From: Deltaproteobacteria bacterium | Lineage (GTDB): Bacteria > Desulfobacterota > DSM-4660 > Desulfatiglandales > HGW-15 | Reading direction: 5' to 3' | NCBI GenBank assembly: GCA_019310525.1 | Contig: JAFDEE010000022.1 | Location: 1 to 37,944 of the forward strand | DNA: 37,944 nt | Part shown: piece after piece, positions 13,646 to 13,805 of the stretch | How positions within the stretch are numbered: position 1 is the stretch's first letter | Layout: each line of letters opens with the position of its first letter | Notes under the pieces: model-generated | The model's database searches: none | What the model saw: only the letters and a program-made list of their open reading frames with translations | Told to the model about the DNA's origin: nothing | Program-made: the position numbers and the translations under genes

Positions 13646-13805
13646 CTAACCCAAATTATGCTTGAACGCTTGCCCGCCGGAATTATGGCGGGAACGTAGC
13701 GGAGGGAACATCCCTTTTACCCTTCACCCATCGGGTGCTGTCAGAATGCTTTAACATATTACAATAAAGATCAATTCCATTAGTAATGTATAATTTGGGT
13801 TTAAG
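13646..13805. mobile_element. MITE-like structured repeat, complete copy 2
   Basis: About 160 bp are bounded by a perfect 12-bp inverted repeat: AACCCAAATTAT at 13648-13659 and ATAATTTGGGTT at 13790-13801. Inside are three hairpins: CCCGCC/GGCGGG, AGGGA/TCCCT and CACCC/GGGTG. The interior matches 8-145 closely, and the left terminus resembles 37837-37861. No clear target-site duplication was found and there is no coding capacity. The element ends 26 bp before the guaB start codon, so guaB expression must start in or cross it. Confidence 0.7.
13738..13765 (+). promoter_or_regulatory. guaB: candidate promoter inside the MITE, reading toward guaB
   Basis: CTGTCA (13738-13743; 4 of 6 -35 matches) and TACAAT (13760-13765; 5 of 6 -10 matches) are 16 bp apart, giving a leader of about 60 nt before guaB. 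The equivalent positions of copy 1 read CTCTCA and TGTAAT, so the -10 quality is kept although the bases differ. Confidence 0.35.

Follow-up and report, generated by a model that had tools for sequence, protein, structure and literature searches.

Does the repeated, hairpin-rich stretch beginning near position 13,650 of this contig represent a mobile element, or a structure that is retained because it folds? The window analysed is the whole of contig C22 (37,944 nucleotides), which belongs to a draft genome of 3.78 Mb in 158 contigs of a Deltaproteobacteria bacterium. An earlier note on this DNA described a MITE-like family represented at 1–145 and 13646–13805, sharing three hairpins and inverted ends, and considered selection on folding as one explanation of its pattern of variation. 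We are confident that it is a MITE, a miniature transposon without a transposase of its own, very probably moved by one of the IS1380 family.

Alignment of copies and comparison with empty sites place the element at 13650–13799 (+ strand), as a short form of 150 bp bounded by CCCAAATTATGC and ATAATTTGGG. The span 13646–13805 does hold the element, and it also took in the target duplication, of which the left copy TCTAA (13645–13649) and the right copy TTTAA (13800–13804) are slightly decayed and differ by one mismatch. The left terminal inverted repeat CCCAAATTATGC (13650–13661, + strand) is common to other copies and to IS1380 elements, and the right one (13788–13799, − strand) corresponds to CCCAAATTATAC as read on the − strand. 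Between them, on the + strand, lie hairpin 1, CCCGCC-GGAATTAT-GGCGGG (13673–13692, with its loop at 13679–13686), hairpin 2, GAGGGA-ACA-TCCCTT (13702–13716), and hairpin 3, CACCC-ATC-GGGTG (13725–13737). The genomic neighbours are a response-regulator/kinase gene on one side and guaB (IMPDH) on the other, the latter starting about 30 bp beyond the element. A promoter scan upstream of guaB gave a single weak match, which is about the number expected by chance, and no promoter or terminator above chance was found around the element.

The second copy in the window (1–139, + strand, followed by a target duplication TTTAA at 140–144) is homologous, with 84% identity over 103 nt and 91% over 53 nt, and both stretches carry the described hairpins. 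Its left terminus is absent, as the contig starts inside the copy. The first bases present (GGCGTAACGCC) fit a long subtype of the element rather than the short one, and we list it as a long form with its left part missing. The loop of hairpin 1 differs between the two copies as had been stated, in 4 of its 8 positions (GGCTGTTT versus GGAATTAT) and not in most of them.

Where the earlier note had allowed that only these two copies might exist, a search of the genome returned 51 BLAST pieces of the element from about 40 loci. In the central block, the mean pairwise identity among copies is 90%, and departures from the family consensus comprise 87 transitions versus 23 transversions. Short forms measure 130–150 bp and long forms mostly 190–330 bp. 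The long forms contain an extra nested hairpin block (GGCCTATTTTGGCTCT...AGAGCCAAAATCGGC); some copies lack parts of this block or have them repeated in tandem. The element is short, most copies lying between 130 and 330 bp, and has no transposase gene. The right half is foreign in some copies (L010, L028, L041, L045), and the family is a mosaic. In L028, L041 and L045 a different sequence (...TTCGGCAAAATCGGCAATCCCGAAGGGTGACAAATTTTG...) stands in place of the right half, with the same terminal repeat still found at the end. We propose that the gene-less interior has been rearranged, as segments were deleted, duplicated in tandem or swapped with other repeats rich in palindromes, and that this gave rise to the short and the long forms.

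Apart from a few point changes, complete copies have CCCAAATTATGC at the start and its complement at the end. The 5-bp flanks are identical in 19 of 26 complete copies, compared with a mean of 4.5 and a maximum of 13 in 20,000 shuffles. Targets follow the consensus TTNAA, whose variable middle base agrees on both sides in 21 of the 26. When duplication lengths from 2 to 10 were compared, a comparable excess appeared at length 5 only. One copy (L024) is flanked by TTCTA on both sides, which argues for a true duplication and against an extended symmetry of the ends.

Empty sites are provided by a second repeat. Five copies (L007, L008, L017, L025 and L027) are inserted within a repeat with the ends TAGTGTCCATCCATAAAT, and so is L005, with one change. 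Because several copies share this one host repeat, their insertions are not all independent events. The uninterrupted junction of the host repeat gives 173 matches in the genome at up to 3 mismatches, a count in which a palindromic site could register on both strands, although the junction in question is not palindromic. Ten empty junctions were read, and TTAAA occurs just once in each, in contrast to the TTAAA-element-TTAAA of the filled sites. An empty target site is also present in the window (CTAAA, 263–267), and its paralogue in L015 holds a copy of the MITE between two TTAAA. A limitation is that all of these empty sites are paralogous, not orthologous. The host repeat itself (inverted ends TAGTGTCCATCCATAAAT; L119–L128) is a second short, MITE-like sequence, and is much more abundant than the element that inserts into it. 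The suggestion of a MITE-like family is borne out by the precise ends, the duplication of a 5-bp target, the empty sites and the existence of an insertion sequence (IS) with the same ends.

The IS in question is found at the other end of the window. Positions 37838–37944 (+ strand) are the 5′ end of an IS1380-family element with the terminal repeat CCCAAATTATGCGTTAACGG, and the contig stops before the transposase gene. A relative, genome G057, contains a complete IS1380 element whose 5′ end matches this stretch along 107 bp (81% identity, E = 3e-26), and an IS1380 element in genome G038 matches it with 78% identity. The complete G057 element has CCCAAATTATGCGTGAA and TTAGTGCATAATTTGGG as its boundaries, with TTCAA on both sides. 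Its transposase gene is broken by one stop, and the product matches NF033539 (IS1380 family) with 203 bits at a cut-off of 180, as well as PF13701. The ends of the MITE are the same as those of this complete element and of the IS1380-homologous end in the window. A 5-bp duplication is also listed for IS1247, a member of the IS1380 family (PMC3281130).

In the draft genome, CCCAAATTATGCGTTAACGG is located near the ends of three contigs, C22 (at 37838), C24 and C33. The pieces on C22 and C24 are one and the same IS 5′ end, and the piece on C33 is probably the other end of the IS. A point against this partner is that an IS1380 transposase gene (PF13701) was not found in the draft, which holds IS ends only, at contig breaks; this is expected if the body of a multi-copy IS was lost at such breaks. 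A second is that MITE and IS show no similarity beyond about 17 bp of the end, so that the MITE did not arise from the IS by mere internal deletion. Outside this genome, searches of plasmids found neither the IS end nor the complete G057 element, and searches of viral contigs did not find the terminal repeat. Across genome contigs the IS end matched only in two contigs of the JALVMN01 MAG. A match of the terminal repeat in genome G001, which sits within an ordinary gene, was set aside as probably due to chance.

Within the IS 5′ end (37876–37939), base pairing is possible between AGTGCCCCC and GGAGGCACT, the second of which contains what is probably the transposase's ribosome-binding site. The fold of this stretch beats those of 200 shuffles (z = −3.0), and the copies in genome G057 and in G078, a relative of the same order, retain the pairing. 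To judge from the sequence, such pairing could limit translation of the transposase from read-through transcripts.

A different partner is conceivable, with the MITE depending on a transposase from outside the IS1380 family. The copy L010 (1349–1607) carries, between its terminal repeats, a transposase-like start MYYTGIDLHKKTSYITTI, putatively IS110-like, and the corresponding transposase body is absent from the assembly. However, this start occurs a single time in the genome, and L010 has the look of a secondary insertion that later lost part of its sequence; it was dropped as evidence for an IS110-type partner. Moreover, the 107 bp of 37838–37944 align with two elements assigned to IS1380 by their transposases, one of which (G057) has the same ends and the same type of duplication. 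We regard a partner from another family as very improbable. The IS with the same ends very probably supplies the transposase of the MITE. The IS1380-family transposase would bind the CCCAAATTATGCGT(G/T)AA ends and insert the element at AT-rich targets of 5 bp (TTNAA), duplicating them. The MITE family probably is, or was, active.

Selection for the hairpins would offer another account, in which the repeat acts as a structured element at the RNA or DNA level (e.g. as a regulatory RNA or as a palindrome bound by a protein) and its mobility is secondary. The fold of 13650–13799 does beat 200 of 200 shuffles (z = −4.4), and hairpin 1 varies less in its stem than in its loop (0.028 versus 0.083 per column, a difference that is not significant). 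On the other hand, not one hairpin pair is changed on both sides in 18 copies (hairpin 1) or 29 copies (hairpins 2 and 3), covariation scores are not above those of shuffled partners, and variability is the same in paired as in unpaired columns. Many long-form copies are without hairpin 1 altogether. An Rfam search of the window at gathering scores gave no match. The hairpins show no detected sign of selection, such that the proposal of selection on folding is not supported, and we consider it scarcely credible that folding is what maintains the repeat. In a MITE moved by an IS1380-family transposase, the hairpins would be a by-product of palindromic content.

The alternative raised in the earlier note, that the copies share a recent origin and vary in the loop, is the better fit, as the GGAATTAT loop is common to other elements as a block. 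L040 and L046 also carry it, and slightly altered versions are present in L038 and on contig C111. The palindrome GCCCGCC-N(6-9)-GGCGGG is found with several loop sequences at dozens of places in the genome, many of them outside the collected family copies, compared with 2 places on each strand for a reversed control pattern. The shared loop block and the dispersed palindrome make it more likely that the loop difference goes back to an exchange of blocks or to ancestry than to point changes constrained by folding. One might go further and propose that hairpin 1 (CCCGCC-variable loop-GGCGGG) is a palindrome with a mobility of its own, taken up as a cassette by different MITE families. We think this unlikely; if it were true, the diversity of loops would stem from independent captures and not from drift.

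No full copy was found in 60 near genomes, which gave just short, marginal matches around hairpin 1 and its neighbourhood, nor in 395 genomes of the phylum, which gave one 31-bp match. Judged by this sample, drawn entirely from other genera, the family appears restricted to the species or genus. This is a new MITE family, probably dependent on IS1380 and confined to its lineage.

Bacterial MITEs have been termed type I when their ends match those of an IS in their own genome (PMC3542288), and the present element resembles these in being short, gene-less and multi-copy, with inverted ends, a target duplication and IS-shared ends. Compared with IS1380-family IS (IS1247; the G057 element), it has the terminal repeats of G057 and the 5-bp AT-rich target duplication, whereas it lacks a transposase and has just about 17 bp of each end in common. 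Tn3-derived TIMEs (PMC4133298) are likewise miniature, mosaic and gene-less, but depend on Tn3-type ends and transposase, where the present element is of IS1380 type. PiggyBac elements have CCC ends and a TTAA target, and IS1380 transposases have been used as their outgroup (PMC10813416). The parallel lies in CCC at the ends and in TTAA versus TTNAA as target. However, piggyBac is eukaryotic and duplicates 4 bp (TTAA), compared with 5 bp (TTNAA) here, and we read this as resemblance only, not membership. An IS1380-dependent MITE was not found in the literature searched.

The element is mostly ordinary, a known kind of element that forms a new family. The analysis describes a well-bounded MITE family linked to IS1380, with its TTNAA target preference and its empty sites. 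The family accounts for repeats and contig breaks of this genome, and its value is otherwise local.
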